34,500 bases of DNA from Nitrospirota bacterium (GTDB lineage: Bacteria > Nitrospirota > Thermodesulfovibrionia > UBA6902). The DNA lies in contig JACRHB010000009.1 in assembly GCA_016217725.1 (NCBI GenBank), positions 1 through 34,500 of the forward strand. The letters run 5' to 3'. The position numbers were made by a program, and so were the translations under genes. Shown here in pieces: positions 1 to 34,499 of the stretch; the stretch's first letter is position 1; every line of letters starts with the position of its first letter. The notes below the pieces were generated by a model. That model saw nothing but the letters and a program-made list of their open reading frames with translations, had not been told where the DNA came from and did no database searches.

Positions 1-111
1 GATGCACGAAAAATCTATGATATTCTGAAAATCCGGAGATATTGCACCCCGTACATAATAAAGAAAATGTAGTGCCCACAAGAAAATTAAAATCCTTATA
101 TCTTAAGGAGT

Positions 112-612
112 TTGTCAAATTCATATATGAAGTCGGGAAATTGTGACGGAGACTGCGACGACAACAACGCCGCAGTCAACCCCGGAGCAGCCGAGATAAA
201 CAACAACGGCTTAGACGACGACTGCAATCCAGCAACGCCTGTAAATACTGTTTCAGGTATTGGAGCAAACCAGCCTTTGCCGGGCTTTAACGCAAGCATA
301 CAGGTAAATGTCAACGAAGCAAACCTCCCAGAGGGTATGGTGAAGTACCGTTACAGTAAAGAGAGATTAACGTTCACGAGCACGACAATCTTATCTATCT
401 ATGCTTCGGGAGGCACGGCAACTATTACAGGCATGGGTAATGCTGTAAGGACAGGCGGGGCAAGTTGCATGGGCTGTCCGTTTACTTTAATAATAGTTGA
501 AGGCAGTCCTGACAGTATGAGCATAAGTATAAACAACGGCGCATATTTTAAAGACCCTGTGTCAGGCACACGGGATTTGACTTCCGGCAATTTCAATCAA
601 ACAGGACAATAA
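112..612 (+). CDS. MopE-type acidic repeat protein, probable 5'-truncated fragment
   Basis: The first 40 residues carry one MopE-like metal-binding module (CDGDCDDNNAAVNPGA, then NNNGLDDDC), as found in exported Ca- or Cu-binding surface proteins. The rest is a roughly 120-residue beta-rich domain that I do not recognise. The reading frame opens inside the module, with no signal peptide. The only starts are TTG at 112, with AAGGAG 1 nt away, or ATG at 127, with that Shine-Dalgarno 16 nt away; neither spacing is good. Upstream, the same frame is closed by TAG at 70 and TAA at 88. This looks like the 3' part of a larger gene cut by a rearrangement, although a short expressed protein is possible. 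It lies 21 bp before the PEP-CTERM gene. The giant protein at the right edge carries the same module type. Confidence 0.5.
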   Translation: MSNSYMKSGNCDGDCDDNNAAVNPGAAEINNNGLDDDCNPATPVNTVSGIGANQPLPGFNASIQVNVNEANLPEGMVKYRYSKERLTFTSTTILSIYASGGTATITGMGNAVRTGGASCMGCPFTLIIVEGSPDSMSISINNGAYFKDPVSGTRDLTSGNFNQTGQ

Positions 613-633
613 AAAAAGAAAGGAGAAACTATT

Positions 634-1164
634 ATGAAAAACAAACAATTTTTTGTATTGGCAATTGCTGCAGCAGTGATATTACTGATGGCTTCAATTG
701 CATCGGCGGTTCCGGGCGCGGACGTGGTGTATTACGAAAGTCCGTGGGACGGTGGTTGGCGGTATGACTTCACATTCTACAATACATCAGATGACGGGGA
801 ATCACTTTTTGAGATGTTTTTATTTTTACCTCAGGATGAAACAGTTACCGGCCTGCTGCCTTTTCCGGTGGGATGGGACAGTATTCCGTCGCCATGGACA
901 GAAACAAATACAACCGCGCTGGTAGATGTATTTTCAACTGACACTCCTTATGATATAGCTGCTGGAGATTATCTCGGCGGATTCAGCTTTAAAGCCGACA
1001 GAAAGGTGAGTCTGGACGGCAATATCACTTATACCGCAAATCTCTCCGGAGACAATAATGTTTCCGGCACAGCGACTTTAGCTCCCGAACCGATAAGCTC
1101 AATCCTCTTTGTAACCGGCGGTATATTATTGGCAGGCAGAAGATTATTAAGAAAGAGGACATAA
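634..1164 (+). CDS. PEP-CTERM sorting-signal exported protein
   Basis: A 176-aa protein with an N-terminal signal peptide (KNKQFF, a hydrophobic run, then SAVPGA near residue 25). Its C-terminus is a PEP-CTERM signal: Pro-Glu-Pro near residue 151, a hydrophobic stretch (SSILFVTGGILLAG) and a basic tail RRLLRKRT. Such proteins are exported and processed by an exosortase in EPS-producing Gram-negatives. The roughly 120-residue middle part is acidic, beta-rich and aromatic, with no domain that I recognise. A clear AAAGGAG Shine-Dalgarno precedes the ATG. A hairpin follows the stop. No exosortase gene is in the window, so it must be encoded elsewhere if the signal works. Confidence 0.85.
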   Translation: MKNKQFFVLAIAAAVILLMASIASAVPGADVVYYESPWDGGWRYDFTFYNTSDDGESLFEMFLFLPQDETVTGLLPFPVGWDSIPSPWTETNTTALVDVFSTDTPYDIAAGDYLGGFSFKADRKVSLDGNITYTANLSGDNNVSGTATLAPEPISSILFVTGGILLAGRRLLRKRT

Positions 1165-1173
1165 CGTTATGCA

Positions 1174-1395
1174 GAGGGATGCGGAAGAAGCCGGCGCTTT
1201 TCCGCATCCCATAGACGAACAGGGTCAGGCTTAACTGTTGAATTTAATATCTCAGGATATAAGTTTGCTTCAATACTTGCCCTCACAAGAAAAAAATTAC
1301 TTATCCCCAACTCCTTCATATCCGCCACCGGAAGCCCGATGACGGCATCCGGAAAATCCCCTTCTTGACATGCTCTATATTGTTCTTCATACTAA
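1174..1395 (-). other. Intergenic open frame, possible gene remnant
   Basis: The gap between the PEP-CTERM and TPR genes holds an uninterrupted minus-strand frame of about 70 codons. It contains GFPDAVIGLPVADMKELGIS and DPVRLWDAEKRR and ends in TAA at 1174. It is closed upstream by TAG and has no good start or Shine-Dalgarno; the first ATG is internal. Its last codons coincide with the hairpin. It may be the decayed end of a gene or chance. No function is assigned. Confidence 0.2.
1176..1210 (+). terminator. Strong hairpin after the PEP-CTERM gene
   Basis: Perfect 11-bp inverted repeat (gggatgcggaa / ttccgcatccc), with an inner AAGC/GCTT extension. It starts 11 bp after the stop at 1164. No T-tract follows, so it may act as an mRNA 3' stabiliser or a Rho-assisted stop rather than a classical intrinsic terminator. 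Confidence 0.55.
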
Positions 1396-1417
1396 CAATT
1401 AAAAAGAGGTGTAACGA

Positions 1418-1975
1418 ATGGATGCAAAAGAATTATTCCGGGAAGGACAAGGCTTCTTCGTCGAAGGTAAGTACGGAGAAAGCATCACATCGTTTTCAAG
1501 AGCCATCGAGGCCGGCGAAAAAACTGAGATAGCCTTTTTAAGCAGAGGTGTTGCATATTTCAAGATGGAGCAGTTCGATAAGGCGGCGCAGGATTTCAAC
1601 GTTGTCATTGACATAAACAGCGGGAATTTCCGGGCCCACTTCTATCGAGGGATATCGTATATGGCAAAACAGGATTATGAAAATGCTATAAAGGATTTCG
1701 ACAATACCATAAAAATCAACTCCGCCTATGGGGCGGCCTTTTTCGCCCGAGGCACAGCTTATGCCCAGATAGGAAATGAATATGAAGCGCAAAGGAGCAT
1801 CCAGACAGCGATCTCCTGTTCTGAGGCATCAATGCAATGGGTTGCAGACCACTATGGCATGTTCAGGACACAGTTTGATCAGGCCATGGCGCTTATGCCG
1901 GGTGAAAGCGATTTTTCTGAAAACCGCAGCGAGCGGATAAACAAACTGAGAGAGTTTTTTGAAGAAGATAAATAA
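1418..1975 (+). CDS. Tetratricopeptide repeat protein
   Basis: A 185-aa protein made of about four consecutive TPR units (residues about 3-140). They show the A/G/Y/A pattern, for example AFLSRGVAYFKMEQFDKAAQD, AHFYRGISYMAKQDYENAIK and AFFARGTAYAQIGNEYEAQ. It has no signal peptide or membrane segment, so it is probably a cytoplasmic protein-interaction scaffold. The partner is not evident. The last 45 residues are charged. AAAGAGGTG provides the Shine-Dalgarno before the ATG. It is convergent with ftsY, with only 5 bp between the two stops and no terminator visible between them. Confidence 0.85.
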   Translation: MDAKELFREGQGFFVEGKYGESITSFSRAIEAGEKTEIAFLSRGVAYFKMEQFDKAAQDFNVVIDINSGNFRAHFYRGISYMAKQDYENAIKDFDNTIKINSAYGAAFFARGTAYAQIGNEYEAQRSIQTAISCSEASMQWVADHYGMFRTQFDQAMALMPGESDFSENRSERINKLREFFEEDK

Positions 1976-1980
1976 GTGAA

Positions 1981-2886
1981 TCAATCAAACAAGGCTTCAA
2001 CGAATTCCGAGGGATCGAAATCCTGCAGGTCCTCGACCGCTTCTCCTACGCCTATTAATTTAACGGGTATATTGAGCTCTTTATTGATCGCCAGGATGAT
2101 GCCGCCTTTTGCGGTGCCGTCGAGTTTTGTCAGGGCGATGCCGGTCACGCCCACTGCGTCATTAAATATCTTTGCCTGGTTAATGGCGTTCTGCCCCGAT
2201 GTGGCGTCAACCACGAGCAGCACCTCGTGAGGGGCGGATGCCGCCTCTTTGCCGACAGCGCGTTTTATCTTTTTGAGCTCCTCCATGAGATTCGTTTTTG
2301 TGTGAAGCCTGCCCGCGGTGTCGATGATTACGACGTCGACATTTTTGGCCCTGGCGGATGACACGGCGTCAAATGCGACCGCAGCCGGGTCCGCGCCGCT
2401 TCGGTGCTTGACGATCTGCGAGCCGGCCCTATGCGCCCAGATCTCAAGCTGCTCGATTGCCGCAGCCCTGAACGTATCCGCAGCCGCGAGCGTAACGGAA
2501 AAGCCCTGATCGGTAAAGCGTCTGGCAAGCTTCCCAATGGTTGTGGTCTTTCCGACGCCGTTGACGCCGACGGTAAGGATGACATAAGGCTTTTCCCCGG
2601 CGCAGATTATCTTTGCGCCCCCTTTAAGCATCTTTTTGATCTCCTCTTTCAGCGCCGCCTTGAGGTCGCGGAAATTAATCAGCTTCCCCTGCTTGACCTT
2701 TTCTCTAAGGGAAGTCGTTATGGAAGCCGCCGCCTGCGGTCCGACGTCGGCCATGATCAGTATCTCTTCAAGCTCTTCAAGGGAGCTCTCGTCAACGGCT
2801 CGGCCCCGGAACAGGGCCTCGGTATTTTCTATAAGGGTCTTTCTCGTCCTGGCTAAACCTTGCTTAAGCTTTTCAAAAAATCCCAC
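1981..2886 (-). CDS. ftsY: Signal recognition particle receptor FtsY
   Basis: The SRP-receptor GTPase that docks ribosome-SRP complexes at the inner membrane for co-translational insertion. Its 301 residues contain the helical N domain (1-85) and the G domain: P-loop GVNGVGKTTT (107-116), DTFRAAAIEQL (137-147), DTAGRLHTK (189-197), TKLDGTAKGG (253-262) and the closing LIGVGEAVEDLQDFDP. The long acidic A domain of E. coli FtsY is absent. The N-terminus is a short amphipathic helix (MGFFEKLKQGLARTRKTL), as in many compact FtsY proteins. Convergent with the TPR gene and upstream-adjacent to the zinc-ribbon gene on the same strand. Confidence 0.97.
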   Translation of the reverse strand: MGFFEKLKQGLARTRKTLIENTEALFRGRAVDESSLEELEEILIMADVGPQAAASITTSLREKVKQGKLINFRDLKAALKEEIKKMLKGGAKIICAGEKPYVILTVGVNGVGKTTTIGKLARRFTDQGFSVTLAAADTFRAAAIEQLEIWAHRAGSQIVKHRSGADPAAVAFDAVSSARAKNVDVVIIDTAGRLHTKTNLMEELKKIKRAVGKEAASAPHEVLLVVDATSGQNAINQAKIFNDAVGVTGIALTKLDGTAKGGIILAINKELNIPVKLIGVGEAVEDLQDFDPSEFVEALFD

Positions 2887-2980
2887 TGTGTTCTCCTTTG
2901 CAATTAAACTTGATCCTCAGATTACACGGACTTGCGCGGCTCTTTTGGAGAAGGTTCAGTTAAATCTGAGCAATCTGCGG

Positions 2981-3196
2981 CTAATGACACGAGCTGCAGG
3001 ATGAAGATTTGCACGACGTGCAGCCGGAGCCGGAAGAAGTTACCGGCTTCTCAACCCCGCTCATGCCGAAAAGGGAAAATTTCTTTTTGATGTTTTTTGA
3101 GCTGCACTTCGGGCATGACACGTCAGGGTTCGCCCCAGAGACAAGCTTCTCAAAATCCTCTGCACAGTCATTGCATTTATATTCATAAATAGGCAT
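2981..3196 (-). CDS. FmdB-family small zinc-ribbon protein
   Basis: A 71-aa protein starting MPIYEYKCNDCAEDFEKL, the hallmark of the FmdB/CxxC_CXXC_SSSS putative regulatory family. Two CxxC knuckles (CNDC at 8-11 and CPKC at 28-31) would bind one zinc. The tail is rich in Cys and Ser (CTSCKSSSCSSCH) and may bind metal. The family has a loosely supported regulatory role, and its true function is unknown. GGAAGGAG lies 6 nt before the ATG. It precedes ftsY on the minus strand with a 94-bp gap, so co-transcription is possible. Confidence 0.9.
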   Translation of the reverse strand: MPIYEYKCNDCAEDFEKLVSGANPDVSCPKCSSKNIKKKFSLFGMSGVEKPVTSSGSGCTSCKSSSCSSCH

Positions 3197-3215
3197 TTAA
3201 ATCTCCTTCCTATGA

Positions 3216-3311
3216 TTCCCTCTCCCCTTGTGGGAGAGGGTTAGGGTGAGGGGGTATAACTTATTTTCACCCTCCCCTTAATCCCCTCCCATCAAGGGAG
3301 GGGAAATCCCC
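3216..3311. repeat. G/C-run palindromic repeats (intergenic copy)
   Basis: Two adjacent inverted repeats built from CCCTCTCCCC...GGGAGAGGG and CCCCTCCC...GGGAGGGG arms. They fill the gap between the zinc-ribbon and transaldolase genes. They belong to the same family as the copies at 4016-4083, 15655-15787, 12948-12984, 13800-13908 and 24252-24427. Confidence 0.8.
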
Positions 3312-3316
3312 TGCAT

Positions 3317-3961
3317 TTACTTCGGCACCTTTTCCCAGTCCTTCAGGAACTTCTCGATGCCGATGTCCGTCAACGGATGCTTTGAAAGCTGCTCTATTAC
3401 CGAGAAAGGGATTGTCGCTACATGAGCGCCCATCCTTGCGGCGTCCAGGACGTGGAGGGGGTTGCGGATGCTCGCGACGATAACCTCCGTTTCAAAGCCG
3501 TAGTTGTCGTATATCTCAAGGATCTGCCCCACAAGGTCCATGCCGTAATGAGTGATGTCATCGAGTCTTCCTACAAACGGGCTGACATAAGCTGCTCCGG
3601 CTTTTGCGGCCAGCAAGGCCTGATTGGGTGAAAACATAAGGGTGACGTTTGTCTTTATCTTGAGCGCCGACAACGCCTTTGTCGCCTTCAACCCGTCTTT
3701 TGTCATCGGAATTTTTATTACGATGTTTTTATGGATCTTTGCCAGCTTCTTTGCCTCCTTGACCATCCCTTCCGCCTCGAGACTGACAACCTCGGCGCTT
3801 ACGGGACCGTCCACTATCCGGCAAATTTCCCTGAGCAGGGCAATCGGCTCTTTCCCCTCTTTCGCTATCAATGAAGGGTTCGTGGTTACGCCGTCGATAA
3901 CTCCGAGCGCATATGCTTCCTTGATCTCTTTGACGTTTGCCGTGTCGATAAAAAATTTCAT
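3317..3961 (-). CDS. tal: Small (subfamily 3) transaldolase
   Basis: Transfers a dihydroxyacetone unit between sugar phosphates in the non-oxidative pentose phosphate pathway. A 214-aa single TIM barrel of the TalC/FSA type: [10 protein letters not shown] (4-13), [10 protein letters not shown] (24-33) and Schiff-base lysine K83 in VIKIPMT. At the positions that separate fructose-6-phosphate aldolase (Gln, Tyr) from transaldolase (Glu, Phe), this protein has E57 (SAEVV) and F129 (SPFVGR), which favours true transaldolase. I chose the ATG at 3961 because AGGAGG sits 6 nt upstream. The ATG at 3967, two codons earlier, directly abuts that Shine-Dalgarno and is unlikely to be used. Confidence 0.93.
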
Positions 3962-12558: not shown

Positions 12559-14340
12559 TTAAAACAACCCGATCTGTCTGTCTTTCTCGCGGCTTCTTAT
12601 TTTATCAGCTATTACCCTGTTTTGTACAAATTGATCGGGGAGCTCTCCCAAAAAAGTTGAGGGCGATGGAGAAAGTCTCTGCCCGTATATAAATCTGTTC
12701 CTTGCATGGATGAGGAAAAGCTCGTCCTTAGCCCTTGTCATGCCGACGTAGAAAAGCCTTCTTTCCTCTTCTATATCAACATCCTCTTTATTAAGAGTAA
12801 ATGGGATTAAACCATCCTCGACTCCTGCGATAAACACAACCTTGAACTCAAGTCCCTTTGCCGTATGCATGGTCATCAACGTAACGGCCTCGGCTTTTGG
12901 GTCGTAAAAATCGGCTGCGGTCAGGAGCTTCTCTTCATTAGCTGTAAGCCCCCCTTTAGCAAAGGGGGGTATGGGGGGATTTTCCGGCTTCAAGATAGAT
13001 CTGAGATATGAAACGGTCTCTTCAAGCTCTTTCTTCTGAATGGAATTCCCTTTGCCTATCACCTGGTAGGGAATGCCGGACTCTATGAAGGCCTCCTCAA
13101 TCGCCCGCGCCTGCGCATTTGTCCTGAAAATAACGGCAAAGTCCGAGAAGCGGTAAGATTGCCCCGAAAACTCATCCGCCGCTTTCTTGTTAATCAATTT
13201 AAAATGGCTCGTGCCGCCGATCCTTTTTTCTATCTCGCTTACAATGATCCTGCCTTCCGCTTTATCGTCAGGCGCGGAGATGATGTTGAGGGGGCTTCCG
13301 CTTTCTCCTGCCGGACGGAGCTCTTTGTCGATCCTCTTCAGGTTGTTTTTAATCATCGCACCGGAGGCGTTGAGTATTACGCCGGTGGAACGGTAATTAT
13401 CCGTGAGCGTTATTGTCCTTGCGCCTCCAAAATCTTTTGTGAAATTCAGGAAGTGCTCCACGTCCGCTCCCCTGAATGAATAGATAGCCTGGTCCGGGTC
13501 GCCGACCGCGCAGATCCTGCCGTCGCTTCCGGCGAGCAGTCTCAGCAGCCTGTACTGCGCCGGATTTATGTCCTGGTATTCGTCGACGATTATGTATTTG
13601 AATCTCTCTCTGTATTTTTTCAATAACGCATTGTCATTATCAGCAATGTCACCCTGAACTCGTTTCAGGGTCTCAAAATGACAGGAATCGGCATTACCGA
13701 ACATCTCAATCGGCTTTAAAATGAGGTCGTCAAAGTCAAAGGCGGAGTTTTTCGCAAGGGCCGACTGATATAGTCCGTAAACCCGTTTTATTTGTTCTGA
13801 AAATCCCCCTGCTTCCCGTTGCAATGCTTCGCGGCAACGGGAGCCCAGCCCCTTTTTCAAAGGGGGATTTATTATTCCCCCCTCAACAAGGGGGGACTCA
13901 GAGGGGTCATACGAATCTTCCGTAAAACTTTTTATCCTTGAAATTCTGTCCGCTGCCTGCCGGGCATTCATGCCGGAATCTTTGAATAATGCTTTAACGA
14001 GCTTTGTCTGCTCATCTCGGTTGTAGAGAATGAATTCATCCGTCAGATTGTCCCTGATGATTTTCAGGCCGAGAAGGTGAAAGGTGCCGATGAAGATTTT
14101 GTCCGCGCCTGATCCCAAAAGCGCATTGACTCTCCCTTTCATTTCCCGTGCAGCGCGGTTGGTGAATGTTACAGCGAGGATGTTTTCTTGCTTCGCGCCT
14201 TGTTGAATGAGGTACGCTATTCGGCGGACAATGGTTAGTGTCTTCCCCGTGCCGGGACCTGCAACAACAAGCACAGGGCCTTCGGTCGTCGTTACAGCCT
14301 GTCTCTGGGATTCGTTGAGGTCGTGGAAGATTTGAGTCAT
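12559..14340 (-). CDS. UvrD/PcrA-like superfamily 1 helicase lacking the 2B subdomain
   Basis: 593 aa with all SF1A motifs: Q motif LNESQRQAV, Walker A GPGTGKT (28-34), FTNRAAREMK, GTFHLLGLKII, Walker B VDEYQDINP, GDPDQAIYSFRG, LTDNYRST, TMHTAKGLEFKVVF and RLFYVGMTRAKDEL. Between the YLR motif and TMHTAKG only about 40 residues remain where UvrD/PcrA/Rep carry a roughly 150-residue 2B subdomain. Palindromic repeats are translated in frame at three places (about residues 144-180, 220-231 and 453-465). I chose the ATG at 14340, one base after the EndoQ-type stop, because the 55-residue extension to 14505 is antisense-like sequence inside the neighbour. Likely role: unwinding in excision repair. 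Confidence 0.88.
   Translation of the reverse strand: MTQIFHDLNESQRQAVTTTEGPVLVVAGPGTGKTLTIVRRIAYLIQQGAKQENILAVTFTNRAAREMKGRVNALLGSGADKIFIGTFHLLGLKIIRDNLTDEFILYNRDEQTKLVKALFKDSGMNARQAADRISRIKSFTEDSYDPSESPLVEGGIINPPLKKGLGSRCREALQREAGGFSEQIKRVYGLYQSALAKNSAFDFDDLILKPIEMFGNADSCHFETLKRVQGDIADNDNALLKKYRERFKYIIVDEYQDINPAQYRLLRLLAGSDGRICAVGDPDQAIYSFRGADVEHFLNFTKDFGGARTITLTDNYRSTGVILNASGAMIKNNLKRIDKELRPAGESGSPLNIISAPDDKAEGRIIVSEIEKRIGGTSHFKLINKKAADEFSGQSYRFSDFAVIFRTNAQARAIEEAFIESGIPYQVIGKGNSIQKKELEETVSYLRSILKPENPPIPPFAKGGLTANEEKLLTAADFYDPKAEAVTLMTMHTAKGLEFKVVFIAGVEDGLIPFTLNKEDVDIEEERRLFYVGMTRAKDELFLIHARNRFIYGQRLSPSPSTFLGELPDQFVQNRVIADKIRSREKDRQIGLF
12948..12984. repeat. G/C-run palindrome translated in frame in the helicase
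   Basis: CCCCCCTTT...AAAGGGGGG hairpin, read on the minus strand as PENPPIPPFAKGGL. It sits where the 2B subdomain of UvrD-type helicases would be. Confidence 0.85.
13648..13682. repeat. GTCATTTTGA-type palindrome translated in frame in the helicase
   Basis: GTCACCCTGAACTCGTTTCAGG is followed by an inverted GTCATTTTGAGACCC end. It is read as SCHFETLKRVQGD, in a loop just before Walker B. A different repeat family from the G/C-run ones. Confidence 0.75.
13800..13908. repeat. Nested palindromes translated in frame in the helicase
   Basis: G/C-run units (TCCCCCT...AGGGGGA and CCCCCCTC..GAGGGG) carry a second palindrome inside them (TTCCCGTTGC...GCAACGGGA, about 13813-13843). It is read as ESPLVEGGIINPPLKKG, then RCREALQREAGG, in the 1B region of the helicase. 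Confidence 0.8.
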
Positions 14341-14341
14341 G

Positions 14342-15613
14342 TCAGAACAGCGTCTCCTGCCCTTTGATCTCTTTTCTCTCGACAGCTTCAAAGATTTTAA
14401 TCTTTCCGTATTCGCCGTCATAGCCCGGCGCAATATGGACTCTGCCTTCACGCATCCGGGAAATCGCTTCGCGTAAAAGCGGAGAGCCGGCCTTTTCAAT
14501 ATCATTCAACGGGACGTCCATGAGGATTTTAAATTCATTGCCGAATTTATACAGCATGCTCTGATATACATTATCCACCGCCTTGCTGTTTACGCCGACC
14601 TTCAGGGTCTCTGCGATGATTTCGGGAAGCGGTATTATTGAGTGGAATGAAGGAGCGCCTTTGAGCTTGAAGCCTTCTTCCCTGTCCGCGAGTTTTTCAA
14701 CGCGGTGCATTACGCCTATCGTTACCTTCTTGCCGCAAACGGGACAGAGCCCGTTGTGCTTTATCGTCTCTTTCGGTGAAAGGCTGACTTCGCAAAGCCT
14801 GTGGCCGTCGTAATGATATTTGCCTTCTTCCGGGAAAAATTCGATTGTCCCGGTAAATCCTTTTCCAGTCTTCAAGGCATCAATCATCGCCTTGTATGAA
14901 ATCTCCGTATCAAAGATGTTTGACTCTCTCCCGATTTTGGCGGGCGAGTGTGCGTCGGAATTGGATATCAAAGTTATCCGGTCGAGCGCCGAGAGCCGCC
15001 GGTTCATGGCAGGGTCCGATGAAAGGCCGGTTTCTATGGCATAAATATACGGCGTCAGCTCTTCATAGCATTCCTCAAGCGAATCAAAGCCGGAGGCCGC
15101 GCCGAAGACCGAGAAATGCGGCGTCCACGCATGGGCGGGAACGAGCATCGCGTCAGGCGAAGCGTCCATTGTAATTTTCAGCAGCTCTTTTGCATCCAAT
15201 CCTAAAATCGGTCTTCCGTCAGCGGTAAGGTTCCCGATTTTCGACAACGCCAGGTTTATCTTTGCGGCGTCTGTAAAATCAGGGACGAAAATTATGGAAT
15301 GAATCTTTCTTGTCTTGCCGTTCTTGCCGTAGATACAGCTTATCTCCGCGGAGAGGAGAAAGGAGACGTCCGCTTTGCATGAAGCGGGAACATTGTCCGA
15401 TTTAAATTCATCTTTCAGCTTGAACAGTCCATTGCCTGAGGATCCGAGTTTCTCATTTAACTCCTTGAACCATTTCGGGTGGGTGAAATCTCCCGTGCCT
15501 ATCACGGTGATGCCTTTAAGCTGCGCCCATCGCCATATGCTTTCCGGCGACATGTCTTTGCTGGTGGCGCGTGAATATTTTGAATGGATGTGCAGGTCGG
15601 CGATAAAACGCAT
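14342..15613 (-). CDS. EndoQ-type PHP-domain endonuclease
   Basis: 423 aa, the length of endonuclease Q, which in Thermococcales nicks DNA 5' of deaminated bases (uracil, hypoxanthine) and has bacterial homologues (TIGR00375 family). N-terminal PHP metal motif DLHIHSKYSRATSKDM (6-21), GTGDFTHPKW, then HAWTPHFSVFG and SNSDAHSPAKIGRE, supply the His/Asp/Glu metal ligands. A zinc-binding part follows: YHYDGHRLCEVSL, GLCPVCGKKVTIGVMHRVEKLADR. The C-terminal HhH-like segment ends KGQETLF. The helicase gene begins one base after its stop, suggesting a joint repair function. The enzyme activity is inferred from the family, not shown. Confidence 0.82.
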   Translation of the reverse strand: MRFIADLHIHSKYSRATSKDMSPESIWRWAQLKGITVIGTGDFTHPKWFKELNEKLGSSGNGLFKLKDEFKSDNVPASCKADVSFLLSAEISCIYGKNGKTRKIHSIIFVPDFTDAAKINLALSKIGNLTADGRPILGLDAKELLKITMDASPDAMLVPAHAWTPHFSVFGAASGFDSLEECYEELTPYIYAIETGLSSDPAMNRRLSALDRITLISNSDAHSPAKIGRESNIFDTEISYKAMIDALKTGKGFTGTIEFFPEEGKYHYDGHRLCEVSLSPKETIKHNGLCPVCGKKVTIGVMHRVEKLADREEGFKLKGAPSFHSIIPLPEIIAETLKVGVNSKAVDNVYQSMLYKFGNEFKILMDVPLNDIEKAGSPLLREAISRMREGRVHIAPGYDGEYGKIKIFEAVERKEIKGQETLF

Positions 15614-15798: not shown

Positions 15799-17523
15799 TT
15801 ATTTCCTTTTAAACATCTTTGCCAATTCATCGAGAGAAAGTAAAATCCTCGTCGGTCTTCCGTGCGGGCATCTGTCGGGATCTTCGGCTTTATCGAGATC
15901 GATCATCATTTTTGACAGCTCCTCATTGTTAAGCGGCTCGCTTCCTCTTACGGATTTGTGGCACGCAAGCCTTGCGGCAATGTTTTTCAGAAGCGCCTCT
16001 CCGGTCATATCCCCTTTTATGCCGCTTGTTTCTTCTTCAAGAATACCGGTTGCAAGGTCTATCAAAAGCCCCTTCATGTCCGCCTTTGTCAGCTCTTTAG
16101 GCAGCGACCTCACGATTACATTGTTGCCGCCGAACTCCTCAACGTCAAGACCCAACGTATGAAGGAAGTCCTTATGTTTGACTATGAGATGATATTCCTT
16201 GACCGGCAGCTCTATCCTCAGCGGAAGGAAAAGAGGCTCGGGCTCGATTGACGTCTTCCTGAGAAGCTTTTCATAGAGGATCCTTTCATGCGCGGCATGC
16301 TGGTCGATAATAAGCAGGCCGTCTTTTGAAACCGTTGCAAAGAAGGATTCCCCGATATGGAAAAACGGCCGCACGTCCTGCGTTATGCCGGATGTGAAAA
16401 AATCGGTCTGGGAGACCTTAAAACCCGGGGGTGCGGATTCACGGACAATGGGGTTATCGTAAAATCCATATTCACCAGCCGGTTTTGTTTTAAAATCAAT
16501 GCCGGTGAGCTCCGCATAGCTTATCCCTTTATCGCCCATTGGGTTCAGGGCTTCATGCACAGCGGCTCCGATCAACCTGTGGATTTCATCCGGGTTCTCA
16601 AACCTGACCTCCCGCTTTGCGGGATGTACGTTTACGTCCACTCTTTTCGGATCAATATCCAGAAAAAGAAAGTATGCCGGATGCCGGTCTTTCGGGATGA
16701 TATTGCCGTAGGCATTATAAACCGCGTGGCTGATCGTCGGGTTTTTCACGGGCCGTCTGTTGACGAATATATGCTGGTGGCTCCTCCTCGTCCTTGCAAA
16801 ATCGGGGGCGGAGACAAAGCCGTAAACCTTCAGACCTCTTTCCTCTTTTTTAAAATCAAAAAATTCCTTGGCCAGCTCATCGCTGTACAGTTGAATAAAT
16901 CTCTCCTTCAAATCAGACACCGACGGGGCATTCAGGATTTCGCCGCCGTTATGTGAAAGAGAAAACGAGATACCGGGATATGCAAAGGCCTTCTGCACAA
17001 CGGTTTCGATGACGTGAGAGAGCTCGGTGGTCGTGCTTTTTAAGAATTTTCTCCTGGCAGGGGTGTTGTAGAAAATGTCGCGCACCTCAACCGTCGTCCC
17101 CTGCACGGGCGGCGCATCCGATATTTCTTTCTTCTGACCCACGCCTATTTCTATTTTTACGCACGTATCCGATCCCGCTGTCGCCGTAGTGAGCGAAATC
17201 TTTGTCACCGAGGCGATCGCGGGAAGCGCCTCGCCCCTGAAGCCGAGGGTGGAGATGTCGAATAAATCCCCTTCAGATTTTATCTTGCTCGTCGCGTGTC
17301 TTTCAAAACATAACACGGCGTCGTCCCTGTCCATGCCCGCGCCGTTGTCCTGCACCTTGATAAGCTTTTTGCCGCCGTGTATGGTCTCAATCTCAATCCG
17401 GGTCGCGCCTGCGTCTATTGAATTATCGATCAATTCCCTCAGCACTGATGCAGGCCGCTCTATGACTTCACCGGCTGCAATTTTGTTTATCAGGTTCTCC
17501 GGAAGAACGGCGATTTTGGACAT
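15799..17523 (-). CDS. mutL: DNA mismatch repair protein MutL (endonuclease type)
   Basis: 574 aa. The N-terminal GHKL ATPase has E30 and N34 in RELIDNSIDAGA, KVQDNGAGM (56-64), ATSKI (77-81) and TLGFRGEALPAI (92-103). After a short linker comes the C-terminal dimerisation and nicking domain, with DQHAAHERILYE (D407, H409, E413, E418; the DQHAx2Ex4E motif), ACHKSVRG (520-527) and CPHGRPT (552-558). It therefore belongs to MutL proteins that nick the nascent strand themselves, as in bacteria without MutH. mutS is not in the window. The gene starts immediately downstream of the repeat and terminator region that separates it from the ferredoxin gene. Confidence 0.97.
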   Translation of the reverse strand: MSKIAVLPENLINKIAAGEVIERPASVLRELIDNSIDAGATRIEIETIHGGKKLIKVQDNGAGMDRDDAVLCFERHATSKIKSEGDLFDISTLGFRGEALPAIASVTKISLTTATAGSDTCVKIEIGVGQKKEISDAPPVQGTTVEVRDIFYNTPARRKFLKSTTTELSHVIETVVQKAFAYPGISFSLSHNGGEILNAPSVSDLKERFIQLYSDELAKEFFDFKKEERGLKVYGFVSAPDFARTRRSHQHIFVNRRPVKNPTISHAVYNAYGNIIPKDRHPAYFLFLDIDPKRVDVNVHPAKREVRFENPDEIHRLIGAAVHEALNPMGDKGISYAELTGIDFKTKPAGEYGFYDNPIVRESAPPGFKVSQTDFFTSGITQDVRPFFHIGESFFATVSKDGLLIIDQHAAHERILYEKLLRKTSIEPEPLFLPLRIELPVKEYHLIVKHKDFLHTLGLDVEEFGGNNVIVRSLPKELTKADMKGLLIDLATGILEEETSGIKGDMTGEALLKNIAARLACHKSVRGSEPLNNEELSKMMIDLDKAEDPDRCPHGRPTRILLSLDELAKMFKRK

Positions 17524-18010: not shown

Positions 18011-18430
18011 TTACTCCGCAGAGACCAGATTGACGCCGACATAGCTGTGGCAGTTATTGCAGGACGTCTGCTCGTTATGGCAGTCAAGACAGCTTTCTTC
18101 CGCATCGGCAAGAAGCGCAGGTTTTTTAACCCCGGTGACAAGATTGGGATGATTCGCCTTCCAGAAATCGAGTCCCTTCAGACCGCTCTTAAACATCTGC
18201 CCGACGACCGGTATCGAGGAATAGGGATTGACGAGAGCTTTGCCTTCCGCCGTTGTATTGGCTATATGTGACTGCGGCGCTTCGTCAACTTCTATAACTA
18301 TCGCCATCGGTCCTTTTGCGTCTCTCGTAGGCTTTTCCACCTTCTGACAGCCGATAACCATCAGCATAAGCACGAGGAGAGGTATTGCAATGAATTTGAA
18401 ATTTGAAATTTGAAATTTGAAATTTTTCAT
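18011..18430 (-). CDS. dsrJ: DsrJ-like diheme c-type cytochrome lipoprotein
   Basis: 139 aa. A hydrophobic signal ends in the lipobox VIGC, so the protein should be a lipid-anchored periplasmic protein. Near the C-terminus are two haem-binding motifs, CLDCH and CNNCH, spaced as in DsrJ (TCxxCH..CxxCHNY), followed by SYVGVNLVSAE and the stop. DsrJ normally has three haems, the last in a CWDCH-like motif shortly after this point; that motif is absent here and in the next 70 bp in any frame. The gene starts one base after the dsrK stop, with AGGAGGGG in the overlap. The first codons consist of 7-bp repeats (18393-18420). Identification as DsrJ rests mainly on context and the haem region. Confidence 0.65.
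   Translation of the reverse strand: MKNFKFQISNFKFIAIPLLVLMLMVIGCQKVEKPTRDAKGPMAIVIEVDEAPQSHIANTTAEGKALVNPYSSIPVVGQMFKSGLKGLDFWKANHPNLVTGVKKPALLADAEESCLDCHNEQTSCNNCHSYVGVNLVSAE
18393..18420. repeat. Four tandem 7-bp repeats at the start of the DsrJ-like gene
   Basis: Four exact AATTTGA units (plus strand), then AATTTTT and the start codon complement. They encode KNFKFQISNFKF at the N-terminus. The 7-bp unit is not a multiple of three, so gain or loss of one unit would shift the frame. Confidence 0.85.
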
Positions 18431-18431
18431 C

Positions 18432-19928
18432 TTATATCCCCTCCTTTGCGCCTAAAATGATAGCGTTGCTTATCAGTTGGTGAACGCCGCCGACTTCTTC
18501 CATTTCAAACCCGTAATACGGGAAGACCTTTGTAAACTGCGCCTTGCATATGGCGCAGATAAGGGCGAAGAAGTTCGCTCCGTGAGAATCTCTTATCTTT
18601 TTATACATCTGCATCCTCGGCATCGCGCCTTTTACCCTGATTTCTACGACCTCGTCCGTCAGCACGCCCCCGCCTCCGCCGCAGCAGAACGTCTTTTCCC
18701 CGATGGTATCGGCGTCCATCTCAACGAATTTGCTGCATACCGCATTTATAAGCTCACGGGGTATCGTGAACTGGTCGCCCGGGGTGTCGCCCATGCTCGT
18801 GGCCCTTGCAACGTTGCATGAGTCATGAAAGGTCACAGTGAATTTATCGTTTGCGGATTTATCCAGTTTCAGAGCGCCTTTTTTTACAAGATCGAGAGTG
18901 AACTCGCAGATATGCATCGGTGATTTATATTTCTGATCAAGAAAATCAAATGGTCCGTTAAGAGTATTGCTGAAAGCATAGAGCACCCGCCACGCATGTC
19001 CGCATTCTCCGGCTATGACGCGTTTTACCTTTAAAGCCCTCGCTGCATCCCATATTCTCTTGTTGATTTGTTTCATGTGATCGTAGTTCCCGATGAACAT
19101 CCCGAAATTGCCGCCTTCCGAGGCATGGGTGCTCATCGTCCAGCTGACGCCGGCCTGGTGGAATACCTTTGCATATCCTTCAAGTGAATAAATATGAGGC
19201 TCTGCAAAGAAATCCGCTGAAGGTGTTGCCAATAAGATATCCGCTCCTTCAACGTCCACGGGTAGTTTTACCTTTACTCCGGTCTTATCAAATATCTCCC
19301 CTTCGACAAACTCCCAGGTGCTTTTCAGGGCGGCGGGGTTCATGCCGAGGTTGTTGCCGATGGTTTCGGCTTTATTAACGATCTCCAGGTTATATTTGGA
19401 GCCCATGCCGACTGAGGCCATTATCTCTCTTGCCGCCATTGTTATCTCGGCCGTGTCTATGCCGTAAGGGCAGAAAACCGAGCAGCGTCTGCATTCCGAG
19501 CACTGGTAAAAATACGTCCACCATTCGTCAAGAAGCTCATCCGATATCTCCCGGGCGGCAGACAGGTTGCCGAAGAGTTTGCCTCCGGTCGTAAAATATT
19601 TCCTGTAGACGCTCCTCATTAATTCCTGCCTGTATACAGGCATATTCCTCGGATCTCCCGTGCCCAGGTAATAGTGACACTTGTCGGTGCATGCGCCGCA
19701 TCTTACGCATATATCGAGGAATACCTTTAAGGATTTGTACTTTTTCAGCATCTCCCCCATTTTCTGAATGAACAGCTCCTTCCAGTTGGAAGGTCTTTCC
19801 TTGGGAAATTTTACCTTTTCCATCAACTCCGGCTTTGCGGGAAATTGCTTGATGTCTTTACTTGCGCCGGGTGTTACTTTCGGTGTTATTATTTGTCCTG
19901 TCAGGACTGGAGTTTCAAATTTTGCCAT
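18432..19928 (-). CDS. dsrK: DsrK, catalytic Fe-S subunit of the DsrMKJOP-type complex
   Basis: 498 aa, HdrD-like, on the cytoplasmic face of the membrane. Two ferredoxin-type motifs occur: CVRCGACTDKC (C74, C77, C80, C84) and CSECRRCSVFCP (C143, C146, C149, C153). The C-terminal CCG domain has HDSCNVARATS and FCCGGGGGVLTDE, matching the site of the unusual [4Fe-4S] centre thought to reduce or oxidise the DsrC trisulfide/thiol. Start is ATG at 19928. It follows dsrM by 12 bp and precedes the DsrJ-like gene by 1 bp, so it is clearly one transcript. Direction (sulfate reduction or sulfur oxidation) cannot be told from this gene. Confidence 0.95.
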   Translation of the reverse strand: MAKFETPVLTGQIITPKVTPGASKDIKQFPAKPELMEKVKFPKERPSNWKELFIQKMGEMLKKYKSLKVFLDICVRCGACTDKCHYYLGTGDPRNMPVYRQELMRSVYRKYFTTGGKLFGNLSAAREISDELLDEWWTYFYQCSECRRCSVFCPYGIDTAEITMAAREIMASVGMGSKYNLEIVNKAETIGNNLGMNPAALKSTWEFVEGEIFDKTGVKVKLPVDVEGADILLATPSADFFAEPHIYSLEGYAKVFHQAGVSWTMSTHASEGGNFGMFIGNYDHMKQINKRIWDAARALKVKRVIAGECGHAWRVLYAFSNTLNGPFDFLDQKYKSPMHICEFTLDLVKKGALKLDKSANDKFTVTFHDSCNVARATSMGDTPGDQFTIPRELINAVCSKFVEMDADTIGEKTFCCGGGGGVLTDEVVEIRVKGAMPRMQMYKKIRDSHGANFFALICAICKAQFTKVFPYYGFEMEEVGGVHQLISNAIILGAKEGI

Positions 19929-19940
19929 TTTCAGTCTCCT

Positions 19941-20666
19941 CTATTGCGCCCAGGGAGCCACGTGTCTGGCCTCCCTCGGGTTGTCTACCTGCGCCCTTGC
20001 CGGGCTGATTAACACGCCCCATGCATGCATCAGTTTGCTGAACGGGAAATATACAAGAAGAATTAAAACCAGGCTGAAGTGAATGACAAACAAAGGGCTG
20101 TCAGGAAGCTGCGCCGGGCTTAAAGAAATAAGGCCGAGAATGAACGCCTTCACGTCTACAAGGTTGGTCCTGACGAAATATTTCAGCAGCAGGCCCGTTA
20201 ACCCTATCGCTATGATCAGGATCAGGACAAAATAATCCTGGAAAAGCGAGATGGTCGCCAATCTGTCGTTTGTAAACCTTCTTATTATCAGGATCAAAAG
20301 GGCGATGGGGAATATGAGACCGGCCCAGATGCCGATATCCTGCAAAGACATTACCCATCCGGGAACAGGATAAAAGAATAATCTAAGGTGCCTTAACACT
20401 ATGAGTAAAAATGAAACGTGGAAAAACCAGCCTCCAACCCATAATATCTTCTCTGCCGCACCTCCCTTTAGAAGGCTTCTGAAAAAAAGTATCTCCGGGA
20501 TCAGCCTTATAACTACGCCGAATGCGCTTTTAGGAGCAGGGGTTGTGGCGATTTTCAGCGGAGAAGGCGTTTTGAAGTACACGATTACTTTATTCAGAAA
20601 GCCTAAAGTAAATACCGCCGCGGCAAGATACGCGAGGAGGTTAAAGACATTGCTCAGTCCGCTCAT
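19941..20666 (-). CDS. dsrM: DsrM, NarI-like cytochrome b membrane subunit
   Basis: 241 aa with about six hydrophobic segments of the nitrate reductase gamma type. Candidate haem-b ligands are His in WFFHVSFLLIVLRHLRLF and in FVIHFSLVLILLVYFPFSKLMHAWG. The C-terminal ISPARAQVDNPREARHVAPWA is cytoplasmic and typical of DsrM. It should exchange electrons with menaquinone and pass them to or from DsrK. A GGAGG Shine-Dalgarno precedes the ATG. dsrC lies 98 bp upstream, with a hairpin between. No dsrO or dsrP follows in this run, so the full five-subunit complex, if present, is completed elsewhere. Confidence 0.93.
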   Translation of the reverse strand: MSGLSNVFNLLAYLAAAVFTLGFLNKVIVYFKTPSPLKIATTPAPKSAFGVVIRLIPEILFFRSLLKGGAAEKILWVGGWFFHVSFLLIVLRHLRLFFYPVPGWVMSLQDIGIWAGLIFPIALLILIIRRFTNDRLATISLFQDYFVLILIIAIGLTGLLLKYFVRTNLVDVKAFILGLISLSPAQLPDSPLFVIHFSLVLILLVYFPFSKLMHAWGVLISPARAQVDNPREARHVAPWAQ

Positions 20667-22463: not shown

Positions 22464-25400
22464 ATGAAAAGACAAATATATTTGAGCGCCTTGCTTCTGT
22501 GCCTTCTGATCTCAATGAATGCTTCGCCGGCCTCTTCAGCGACGATAGACCCGTCTTTCAGGTTCTCGACTATCGAGACGGAGCATTTCATTATTCACTT
22601 CCATCAGGGTGAAGAGGAGTTAGCCGACAAGCTGGCCCTGATCTCGGAAGACGTCAACAGGAAATTGTCCGAAGCTTTTCTATGGGCGCCGCCGGAGAAG
22701 ACGCGGGTGGTCCTGATCGACAACTCCGATTTTGCAAACGGGTTCGCCAACGTCCTCCCTTACAATATAATTTATATCGTTGCGGTCCCCCCCCGGCCCG
22801 ACATGACCATCGGAGAATATGACAACTGGCTTGAGATGGTCTTTATACATGAATACACGCATATCCTCACGATGGACACTTCAAAGGGTTATGCAGCCGT
22901 GACAAGGAGCGTCTTCGGCAAGACACTGCCGGGATATGATCCTCTGTCTTTCCTTTTGTTCTTATTGACTGCGCCGCCTAATGTCTTCCTGCCCGACTGG
23001 TGGCTTGAGGGCGCTGCCGTGTGGGCTGAATCCGAATTCACCCCTTCAGGCCGAGGCAAGAGCTCTTACGTCGAGATGATATTCAGAATGGCGGTTGCCG
23101 AGAACAATATACCCAGGGTGGACCAAATAAATGGAGACGTGCCTTACTGGCCGTCAGGGAACCTGCCTTACCTTTACGGGATGCTGCTTGAGAAGCACGT
23201 CGCCCTTACCTACGGTAAAGATAAGATCGGCGAGCTGAGCAGCGAGCATGCCGGACGCCTGCCGTTTATGATAAGCGCGCCGCCCCAAAGACTTACCGGA
23301 CTGAACTATGCCCGGCTTTACAGAGACGCGGTAAAAGAGCTCAAAGAAGACCAGAGCAAAAAAATAGAGTATCTCAAGTCAAAGCCTTTTACAAAATACA
23401 CCGGGCTCAAGATTAAAGGTGAGAGGGTGACAAACCCCCGCCTTTCCCCGGACGGCAGGTATATTGCTGCAAACAGAAAAGACCCCCATCGTCATGAAGA
23501 GATAATAATAGTCGATACAAATAATTTTAAGGAGATCTCAAGGGTCAGGAGACTGCCTTCGGACTCAAACGTTTCATGGGCTCCCGACAGCCGGAAGCTG
23601 TATTTTACCCAGGCGGAGTTGAGATACACCTATAATCTTTACCAGGACGTTTATTCATACGACCTCGTTGACAGGTCGGTAAAAAGGGTTACAAAAGATC
23701 TGCGGGCCAAGGACGTTGATGTATCTCCCGACGGAAAAGATCTTGCTTTCGTTATGGTGGGAACAGGCCGCCAGAGTATTGCCGTCCTTAAGGCCGGCTC
23801 CGACAAGGCGGAACCCCTTACGGATCTCAAGGATTCGGCTTTATCGTCTCCCAAATGGTCTCCGGACGGAAAATCCATCGTATTCTCAAAACACGACAAC
23901 TCCGGGCAGGTATCGATTGAGCTGCTTAACGTCGAGACGAAGACCGTTGAGACGCTGCTTTTGAACAAATATAACAACGTCTTCCCTACGTGGTCGCCGG
24001 ACGGAAAGTTTGTAATCTTCACGTCAGACCGGACAGGGGTATTTAATCTCTTCGCTTATTCCATCCAGGATAAAAAACTTTACCAAATATCTCATGTCCT
24101 CGGCGGGGCTTTTCAGCCCGATGTTTCACGTGAGGCAAACAAGATATTGTTCTCCGCTTATTCTTCAAAAGGCTTTTATCTATCTGAAATGTCTTACGAT
24201 CCTTCGCAGTGGTCTGAAACTCTAAGTCCCAGGATCAATATTGAATGGGATAACCCCACCCATCCTCCCCTTAATTTAAAGGGAGGCGAGGAGGGGTTAT
24301 TGGAAAAGGCCGATGAAAATAATCCCCCCTCCCCCCCCTTTAGTAAAGGGGGGGACACACCCCTGACCCCTCTTGATAGAGGGGAATTAACTCCCCCTTT
24401 GGAAAAGGGGGACGAAGGGGGATTTTCAGAACAGGCTCCCGTAGAGGTATCTGAAAAGAAGCCGTACTGTCCCCTGCCGTCGCTGCTGCCGAAATTCTGG
24501 CTGCCGACGCTTACAGCCGATCATGAGGGCGCGGTATTCGGGGCGTTCACTGCGGGGCAGGACGTGCTCGGCTATCATACATACACTCTGCAGGGAGGCT
24601 ACGGGGTCAGCCATAAGGGATATTTTGATGTGAATTATGTATATGACAGATGGTATCCGACGTTTTTCGCCAGGTGGTATTCCGCGCCGGTCTCTTATTC
24701 TGAATTTTTTAATGACAACGACGATTATTTTGAAAGGAGAAGCGGTCTGACCGCGGGAGTAAGCATGCCTCTTTACAGCACGCTTGAAAAGAGATTAAGC
24801 CTTGTCGCCGGTTACAACACGGAAATATCAGAGCAACTGACCGATATAGACAACAGAAAAGTTGACGGCCTTGAGGTGTTTGAAGGCCGCAGAAGCAGTG
24901 TCTTTACAGGCCTGAGATACAGGGATGCGCTGAAATATCCCTATTCGATTAGCCGGGAAGAAGGAAGGGATATATCGCTGTCTTACAGGAATTACTCGGA
25001 AAACGTCGGGAGCGATCTGAGCCAGAGCGAATACACGGCAGGCTATGAAGAGTTCATCGGCGTGGGCAAGCATCACGTCATCTATTTAAACTTCAAAGGG
25101 GCGACGGCAGGCGGCGACCGAATAGCACAGCAGGCATACGGGCTCGGCGGCATTTCTTCCGCAGTGAATCAATATTCGCTCAGGGGATTCGCTTCAGGCT
25201 TTCAGACCGGAAAGCATCTTGCAACTGCGTCGCTTGAATACAGGTTCCCGGTGAAATACATCTTCAGAGGCCCTAATACAAAACCGTTTTTCTGGGACAG
25301 GCTCCACGTCGCGGCATTCACGGATGCAGGGGATGTGTGGGGAGACAATAGGAAGTTTGAATGGGACGAGGTCTCCGTAGGCCTCGGCGCGGAGGTGAGG

Positions 25401-25514
25401 CTGGATATGGTGCTGGGATATAAATTAAAGATAACCCCCGCGCTCGGCATCGCGCAGGGAATAACCGACGACGGCGAGACGCAGGTATATATTACGATAT
25501 ATTCGGAATTGTAG
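22464..25514 (+). CDS. Peptidase-like / PD40 propeller / outer-membrane barrel protein
   Basis: 1016 aa. Signal peptide 1-26 (ending SSAT). Residues 30-320 form a gluzincin (Peptidase_MA-like) domain with H129-E130-Y131-T132-H133 and a downstream Glu in WWLEGAAVWAE (E182). Residues about 330-580 hold five or six TolB-type PD40 units (LSPDGRYIA, WAPDSRKLYF, VSPDGKDLAFV, WSPDGKSIVF, WSPDGKFVIF). Residues 597-655 are a Pro/Gly linker made wholly of translated palindromic repeats. Residues about 680-1016 look like an Omp85/D15-type barrel (LRGFASGFQTGKHLA, EYRFPV, FTDAGDVWGD, closing VYITIYSEL). It is probably an outer-membrane protein with a periplasmic or surface propeller. Substrate and proteolytic activity are unknown. 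Confidence 0.82.
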   Translation: MKRQIYLSALLLCLLISMNASPASSATIDPSFRFSTIETEHFIIHFHQGEEELADKLALISEDVNRKLSEAFLWAPPEKTRVVLIDNSDFANGFANVLPYNIIYIVAVPPRPDMTIGEYDNWLEMVFIHEYTHILTMDTSKGYAAVTRSVFGKTLPGYDPLSFLLFLLTAPPNVFLPDWWLEGAAVWAESEFTPSGRGKSSYVEMIFRMAVAENNIPRVDQINGDVPYWPSGNLPYLYGMLLEKHVALTYGKDKIGELSSEHAGRLPFMISAPPQRLTGLNYARLYRDAVKELKEDQSKKIEYLKSKPFTKYTGLKIKGERVTNPRLSPDGRYIAANRKDPHRHEEIIIVDTNNFKEISRVRRLPSDSNVSWAPDSRKLYFTQAELRYTYNLYQDVYSYDLVDRSVKRVTKDLRAKDVDVSPDGKDLAFVMVGTGRQSIAVLKAGSDKAEPLTDLKDSALSSPKWSPDGKSIVFSKHDNSGQVSIELLNVETKTVETLLLNKYNNVFPTWSPDGKFVIFTSDRTGVFNLFAYSIQDKKLYQISHVLGGAFQPDVSREANKILFSAYSSKGFYLSEMSYDPSQWSETLSPRINIEWDNPTHPPLNLKGGEEGLLEKADENNPPSPPFSKGGDTPLTPLDRGELTPPLEKGDEGGFSEQAPVEVSEKKPYCPLPSLLPKFWLPTLTADHEGAVFGAFTAGQDVLGYHTYTLQGGYGVSHKGYFDVNYVYDRWYPTFFARWYSAPVSYSEFFNDNDDYFERRSGLTAGVSMPLYSTLEKRLSLVAGYNTEISEQLTDIDNRKVDGLEVFEGRRSSVFTGLRYRDALKYPYSISREEGRDISLSYRNYSENVGSDLSQSEYTAGYEEFIGVGKHHVIYLNFKGATAGGDRIAQQAYGLGGISSAVNQYSLRGFASGFQTGKHLATASLEYRFPVKYIFRGPNTKPFFWDRLHVAAFTDAGDVWGDNRKFEWDEVSVGLGAEVRLDMVLGYKLKITPALGIAQGITDDGETQVYITIYSEL
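24252..24427. repeat. G/C-run palindromic repeats translated as the linker of the envelope protein
   Basis: Four consecutive units (CCTCCCC..GGGAGG, CCCCCCTTT..AAAGGGGGG, CCCCTCTT..AGAGGGG, CCCCCTTT..AAAGGGGG) stay in frame over about 176 bp. They encode PTHPPLNLKGG, PPSPPFSKGG, TPLDRGE and PPLEKGDEGGF, between propeller and barrel. Confidence 0.9.
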
Positions 25515-34200: not shown

Positions 34201-34499
34201 CCAAATGCCACAAAACGGCCATCCACGCTGATTGAAGGATACTCGCTGTAGCTGTTTCCCTGGACGCCGTTGTTATCAACGCTCACCCTCACGGTCTGTC
34301 CCGTCTCACGGTCATGCACAAACACATCGCTTCGACCGTTTGTGTCACCCGTGACGAGATTTGACGCCGAGGAATCAAATGCCACAAAACGGCCATCCGC
34401 GCTGATTGATGGATTATAGCTGTAGCTGTTTCCCTGGACGCCGTTGGTATCCACGCTCACCCTCGTGGTCTGTCCTGTCTGACGGTCATGCACAAACAC
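28242..34499 (-). CDS. Giant exported Ca-binding/propeller repeat protein (N-terminus beyond the window)
   Basis: At least 2085 aa, open to the right edge. In order: three 58-aa PD40-like repeats ([22 protein letters not shown]) at about 1-175; MopE and thrombospondin type-3 Ca repeats ([20 protein letters not shown]) to about 420; an F5/8-type discoidin domain ([13 protein letters not shown] ... [17 protein letters not shown]) to about 560; a short Ca repeat; 14 RCC1 repeats (TVWAWGxNxxGQLGDGT) at about 640-1345; a MAM-like carbohydrate-binding type domain; a BACON domain ([17 protein letters not shown]); seven delta-60 repeats (DGTPDxxFGxGG); and a MopE/TSP3 tail ending GIGDACDT. No C-terminal anchor or PEP-CTERM signal is seen. 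A secreted or surface adhesion role is inferred from the domains. Confidence 0.9.

Follow-up and report, generated by a model that had tools for sequence, protein, structure and literature searches.

Helicases of superfamily 1A (SF1A), such as PcrA, UvrD and Rep, have a four-subdomain architecture that includes the 2B subdomain, and the role of 2B (auto-inhibition, loading, protein displacement) has so far been argued mainly from engineered deletions. It has been shown that Rep without 2B unwinds DNA better, displaces proteins less well and fails as a replication accessory helicase, and that it remains able to support phiX174, in which Rep is recruited by the nickase CisA (PMC6158625). In the literature that we searched only one natural SF1A helicase without 2B was found, namely PcrA-s (MPN340) of Mycoplasma pneumoniae, a highly active helicase that is reported to be specific to M. 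pneumoniae; its gene measures 1590 bp, and a full PcrA is encoded in the same genome (PMC3720892). Another short UvrD-like protein is GajB of the Gabija system (about 494 aa), which has a nuclease partner, carries a divergent accessory domain at the 2B position and shows no unwinding activity (PMC10681800).

In Thermococcales, the endonuclease EndoQ is recruited by the sliding clamp PCNA through a C-terminal motif, binding through which has been proven, and a clamp-type motif has also been noted in bacterial EndoQ; no helicase partner is described in that study (PMC4858679). Bacterial sliding clamps recognize a C-terminal pentapeptide of the QL(S/D)LF type (PMC9690074). The literature searched yielded no helicase partner of EndoQ with this kind of tail.

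The window analyzed here, a stretch of 34,500 nucleotides from a Nitrospirota genome, contains on its minus strand the gene order mutL, endoQ, helicase and then an ispF-like open reading frame (ORF). The helicase ORF (12559-14340, minus strand) encodes 593 aa, with its ATG at 14340 and its stop at 12559, and this ATG lies one nucleotide past the stop codon of endoQ (TGA-C-ATG). A longer alternative ORF begins at 14505 and runs into endoQ; the start at 14340 is backed by the relatives. The protein matches the Pfam families UvrD-helicase (E 4.6e-74) and UvrD_C (E 3.9e-44), and stays below the NCBIfam equivalog cut-offs of pcrA (469 versus 911 bits), uvrD (383 versus 1144) and rep (399 versus 951); a separate canonical UvrD with 2B (C80, 702 aa) is encoded in the same genome. 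The adjoining gene (14342-15613, minus strand) encodes 423 aa that match PfuEndoQ (5zb8) over its full length (residues 5-417, E 3.8e-51) as well as TIGR00375 (E 4.6e-54), in the latter case with 184 bits, under the curated cut-off of 327 bits, and judged by these matches its product is a genuine EndoQ homologue. The next gene upstream, identified with Pfam, encodes MutL (15799-17523, minus strand), whose closest relatives are those of genomes of the same genus (70-76% identity), so that the contig belongs to this genus and a contaminant contig is ruled out; the helicase itself is patchy in distribution.

The motor of the helicase is intact. All SF1A motor motifs are kept, i.e. the Q-motif, Walker A, the DExQ box and motifs III-VI, with the strings GPGTGKT, VDEYQD, GDPDQAIYSFRGA, NYRST, TMHTAKGLEF and EEERRLFYVGMTRA, and the key positions are invariant or nearly so. 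In the alignment to PcrA (1pjr), residues 3-454 and 482-573 of the helicase pair with residues 7-407 and 555-647 of PcrA, leaving 27 residues at the 2B position, compared with 147 in PcrA. Between YLR (residues 445-447) and TMHTAKGLEF (from residue 490) we counted 42 residues, in agreement with the roughly 40 of a preliminary description of this DNA, which had proposed the absence of 2B. What is retained is the N-terminal edge of 2B, residues 428-454 ending in ELEETVSYLRSILKPEN (12979-13059, minus strand), which aligns to PcrA up to its residue 407 and to a relative that contains 2B (L086). Past residue 573 of 593 the PcrA alignment stops; PcrA runs on for 77 residues and the helicase for 20, to QIGLF, an end that by its length appears too short for the C-terminal Tudor-like RNA polymerase-binding region.

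An AlphaFold (AF2) model built from 46 family and canonical sequences (mean pLDDT 82.7, pTM 0.84) contains neither 2B nor an additional domain anywhere in the chain, and thus the four-subdomain architecture is absent from both alignment and model. The top Foldseek match of this model in the PDB is PcrA 1pjr (E 1.5e-48, TM 0.72 by query length). An assembly frameshift that hides 2B, the other explanation which the preliminary description had asked to be checked, is rejected, since the coding space at this place amounts to only about 40 codons, with no room for a hidden frame, and the relatives are also without 2B: the closest ones found in genomes of the same class (L036, L037, L038, L039, L040 and L041-L043; 515-579 aa) have a likewise reduced 2B. 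The helicase therefore lacks 2B while its motor is intact, which matches the definition of the PcrA-s type (PMC3720892).

Compared with the described systems, the window helicase shares fold and motifs with PcrA, UvrD and Rep, which are its best PDB fold and sequence matches, and differs from them in the loss of 2B, in its QIGLF end and in its scores below their equivalog cut-offs. In engineered Rep the same domain was removed artificially, and its partners are CisA of phiX174 or DnaB, whereas the window helicase is accompanied by EndoQ and, as predicted, by the clamp; the natural proteins closest to that construct are two relatives in which 30 residues remain in the 2B segment (L037 and L039). 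PcrA-s resembles the window helicase in the loss of the whole 2B, in its similar length and in the additional full-length enzyme of its genome, but the window helicase belongs to a family with graded and repeated 2B loss, EndoQ linkage and QxxLF tails, and no mention of an EndoQ linkage or a clamp tail was found in the accessible part of the PcrA-s report (PMC3720892). GajB is a weak sequence match.

To delineate this family, a profile was run against 396 genomes of the phylum, mostly metagenome-assembled and all from one genome collection, and the neighbourhoods of the matches were inspected together with those of earlier matches. Family members score from 905 down to about 544 bits and canonical UvrD proteins 529 bits and below, while one extra member (G290) scores within the canonical range. 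Measured as the span from the FAV-R-Q motif to motif V, the size of 2B turned out to be graded. It is 190-205 residues where 2B is present (L086, L197, L200, L203 and L089), 157 in L196, about 125 in L038 and the G058-type clade, 104 in L040 and L208, 85-91 in the window helicase, L036, L209, L210, L211, L213, L216 and L218, and 66, the shortest, in L037 and L039. A tree computed without the 2B columns implies at least five switches between a full and a reduced 2B, and a single clade of all reduced-2B proteins is rejected (p-AU 4e-38). In particular, the reduced L219 is sister to the full L215 (support 100/99), and the reduced L038 and L196 cluster with the full L197 (support 99/95). By these phylogenies, 2B has been reduced several times independently within the EndoQ-associated helicase family. 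A single clade of the roughly 50-residue group, which includes the window helicase, is not rejected (p-AU 0.12), so that the loss in the window helicase itself could be a single event common to its relatives. A natural 2B-less SF1A helicase was already known in PcrA-s; what the present family adds is a way to test the role of 2B, because orthologues with the same partner span from a full to almost no 2B and can be compared as natural enzymes.

The partner in question is EndoQ. It adjoins the helicase or lies close to it in most of the loci with enough contig, forming operons with it outside the window too, and is within a few kilobases of it in L038 and L210. Helicases with full 2B (L086, L200 and L203) are also found next to EndoQ, and in a deltaproteobacterial contig (L089) one ORF of 1127 aa (36-3419) fuses EndoQ to a UvrD with 2B, with QKQLF at the junction and QLQLF at the C-terminus. 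The model of this fusion shows a folded EndoQ domain and a folded, helical 2B, with the N-terminal part of the helicase at low confidence; no EndoQ-helicase interface can be read from it owing to this low confidence and to its pTM of 0.54. The linkage is not universal, as EndoQ is absent beside the helicase at L040 and L208 and in the L214-L219 group, nor does EndoQ depend on the helicase, since among 61 related genomes EndoQ occurs in 56 and the helicase in only nine.

Both proteins of the module end in similar pentapeptides, QIGLF in the helicase (12562-12576, minus strand) and QETLF in EndoQ (14345-14359, minus strand), which we predict from their sequence to be sliding-clamp-binding motifs of the QL(S/D)LF type. 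QxxLF ends every helicase of the family whose C-terminus is seen. Of the 764 ORFs scanned in the fetched loci, 64 have an end of the QxxLF type, and all 64 are EndoQ or family helicases. Some EndoQ homologues are without the tail: in the sample of related genomes, by a hand count that ignores shared ancestry, EndoQ carries it in 9/9 helicase-bearing genomes versus roughly 13/33 informative helicase-less ones.

Taken together, we favour, with a probability of about 60%, the reading that the window protein supplies the helicase of a bacterial EndoQ repair module, in which a nickase and a helicase are tethered to the clamp and 2B is dispensable. In such a module, clamp-tethered EndoQ would nick 5' of a deaminated base (uracil or hypoxanthine) or of an abasic site; the helicase, on the same clamp, would load at this nick and track 3'-5' along the intact strand, displacing the damaged strand, and the gap would be refilled by a clamp-bound polymerase. 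A clamp-sharing helicase that could displace the damaged strand is thereby proposed as a downstream step of bacterial EndoQ repair. EndoQ and the clamp would set the site at which the helicase acts, and we propose that, with this choice made by them, the 2B switch would no longer be needed and has been repeatedly eroded; the loss of 2B should cost least in a helicase that has a nickase as its partner. The stronger form of this proposal, namely that EndoQ and the clamp-tethered helicase form a single nick-and-peel unit, and that the nickase/clamp partnership makes 2B superfluous and so accounts for the parallel losses, at least several in number, is tentative, and we put it at somewhat below even odds. 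As for the substrate, a uracil-DNA glycosylase (UDG) was found in this genome and EndoV was not, although the absence of the latter is not certain in an assembly that is about 93% complete. EndoQ would then be the hypoxanthine nickase of this genome, and hypoxanthine would be its likelier main substrate, uracil having another repair route through UDG.

MutL and a clamp participate in bacterial mismatch repair, and the mutL gene stands just upstream of the module in the window; the helicase might accordingly work in mismatch repair together with MutL, which is able to activate UvrD-type helicases via 2B. We consider this unlikely. At the other fetched loci MutL is not next to the helicase, and it accompanies EndoQ only at L047 and L076; besides, the genome encodes the canonical UvrD with 2B mentioned above. 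Furthermore, the activation of UvrD by MutL goes through a rotation of 2B (according to the title of a reference in PMC10681800), a subdomain that the window helicase is without.

The preliminary description had suggested that a helicase without 2B may be constitutively active and held in check by the neighbouring EndoQ. The first part is plausible by analogy, since Rep is activated by the removal of 2B (PMC6158625) and PcrA-s is active without it (PMC3720892), and the window helicase may well be active too. For the second part, which we regard as quite unlikely, the adjacency of the two genes can be adduced, but no support was found otherwise. EndoQ also stands beside, or is fused to, members with full 2B (L086, L200, L203 and L089), so that its link to the helicase predates 2B loss or is independent of it; this speaks against an origin of EndoQ as a replacement for auto-inhibition by 2B, i.e. 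as an inhibitor gained after the loss. In addition, both proteins bear tails of a recruitment type. Given the one-base spacing or overlap, the gene fusion and the common QxxLF tail, co-recruitment of EndoQ and the helicase to the same clamp is likelier than restraint.

The helicase gene carries three in-frame insertions of dispersed repeats, all matching copies elsewhere in the genome at 91-100%, of which the 2B junction hosts only one. This is the palindromic repeat R1 in the linker that replaces 2B (12948-12984, minus strand; residues 453-465), whose palindrome (12949-12969) is translated as ENPPIPPFAKGG. The preliminary description had recognized this translated repeat and missed the other two. 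One of these is an R1-type composite element (about 13801-13911, minus strand; residues ~144-180), which is 94% identical over 67 nt to L238 and missing from the helicase relatives; the other is an insertion of a second repeat, R2 (about 13633-13692, minus strand; residues ~217-236, SCHFETLKRVQGD), with copies elsewhere that match at up to 100% over 31 nt, and it is not present in most relatives. The three sites coincide with the low-confidence or disordered segments of the model (residues 458-463, 142-174 and 218-233, respectively). Repeat-like peptides (PPQPSFAKGG; SSHFSKGGKGEFSKE) were also seen in L218 (residues 220-235), near the second insertion site of the window helicase, and in L197 (residues 454-468), there within 2B.

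R1 (core CCCCCTTTNNNAAAGGGGG) occurs at 127 sites in the genome, versus none for the reversed control pattern, and in the window the palindrome-type pattern has 13 matches on both strands with up to three mismatches, versus 0.03 expected by chance. Of 50 R1 sites in a 250-kb sample, 33 are intragenic, a share close to the 0.72 of random positions, and the full copies encode about NPPSPPFAKGGDTPLTPLDRGELSPPLEKGD. The hosts identified with Pfam include an AcrB-type pump, nitrogenase component 1, a Mur ligase, LpxK, KdtA, pyruvate kinase and ResB. Within the window, R1 is also found at 24321-24433, and a PD40 beta-propeller protein (22464-25514, 1016 aa) has an in-frame composite element that contains two R1 palindromes. 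R2 (CACCCTGAACTNGTTTCAGGGTCTC) has 24 genome sites, including 13650-13674 of the window, and unlike R1 it is mostly intergenic (two of 19 sampled sites inside genes). Among the related genomes G000-G060 the count of exact R1 cores ranges from 0 to 155, and inside one genus from 1 to 155, a spread that suggests recent bursts. Rickettsia palindromic elements (RPE) are likewise palindromic repeats found in frame within many protein genes; we set R1 beside them by description, as a likeness of behaviour, both being dispersed palindromes in frame inside many genes of unrelated hosts. No paper on R1-derived peptides was found in the literature.

Three such insertions in one gene, together with its patchy distribution among the related genomes, might be taken as signs of a decaying gene that has lost 2B and is no longer under selection. 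This is very unlikely to be the case, however, as all motifs are intact and the frame is open over 593 codons, R1 also resides in conserved enzymes of the genome such as the pyruvate kinase, LpxK and Mur ligase named above, and the same 2B-less form has been kept across many genera. Moreover, the dN/dS of 0.17-0.20 between pairs of 2B-less relatives indicates purifying selection, and hence that these helicases are maintained proteins. That 2B was deleted in this lineage by repeat insertion or by recombination between repeats, as a copy lying exactly at the 2B junction (12948-12984) might suggest, is hardly credible, because the helicases are also 2B-less in genomes that have no exact R1 copy (G010, G030 and G057-G060), the junction linkers of further 2B-less members, among them L036 and L210, are ordinary, and L037 and L039 have lost even more of 2B. 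The tie between repeat and 2B loss drawn by the preliminary description is therefore given up; we regard the insertions as passengers of a mobile repeat that are tolerated in surface loops and stand outside the mechanism, and the position of one of them at the 2B junction is coincidental.

Two other regions of the window deserve mention. A 2085-aa ORF (28242-34499) that runs past the window end contains many RCC1 repeats, thrombospondin type 3 repeats and an F5/8 type C domain, and probably encodes a large surface protein. The region 18011-20666 encodes an iron-sulfur cysteine-rich protein, a nitrate reductase gamma-like membrane protein and a small haem-motif protein, which resemble a DsrMKJ-type electron transfer complex.
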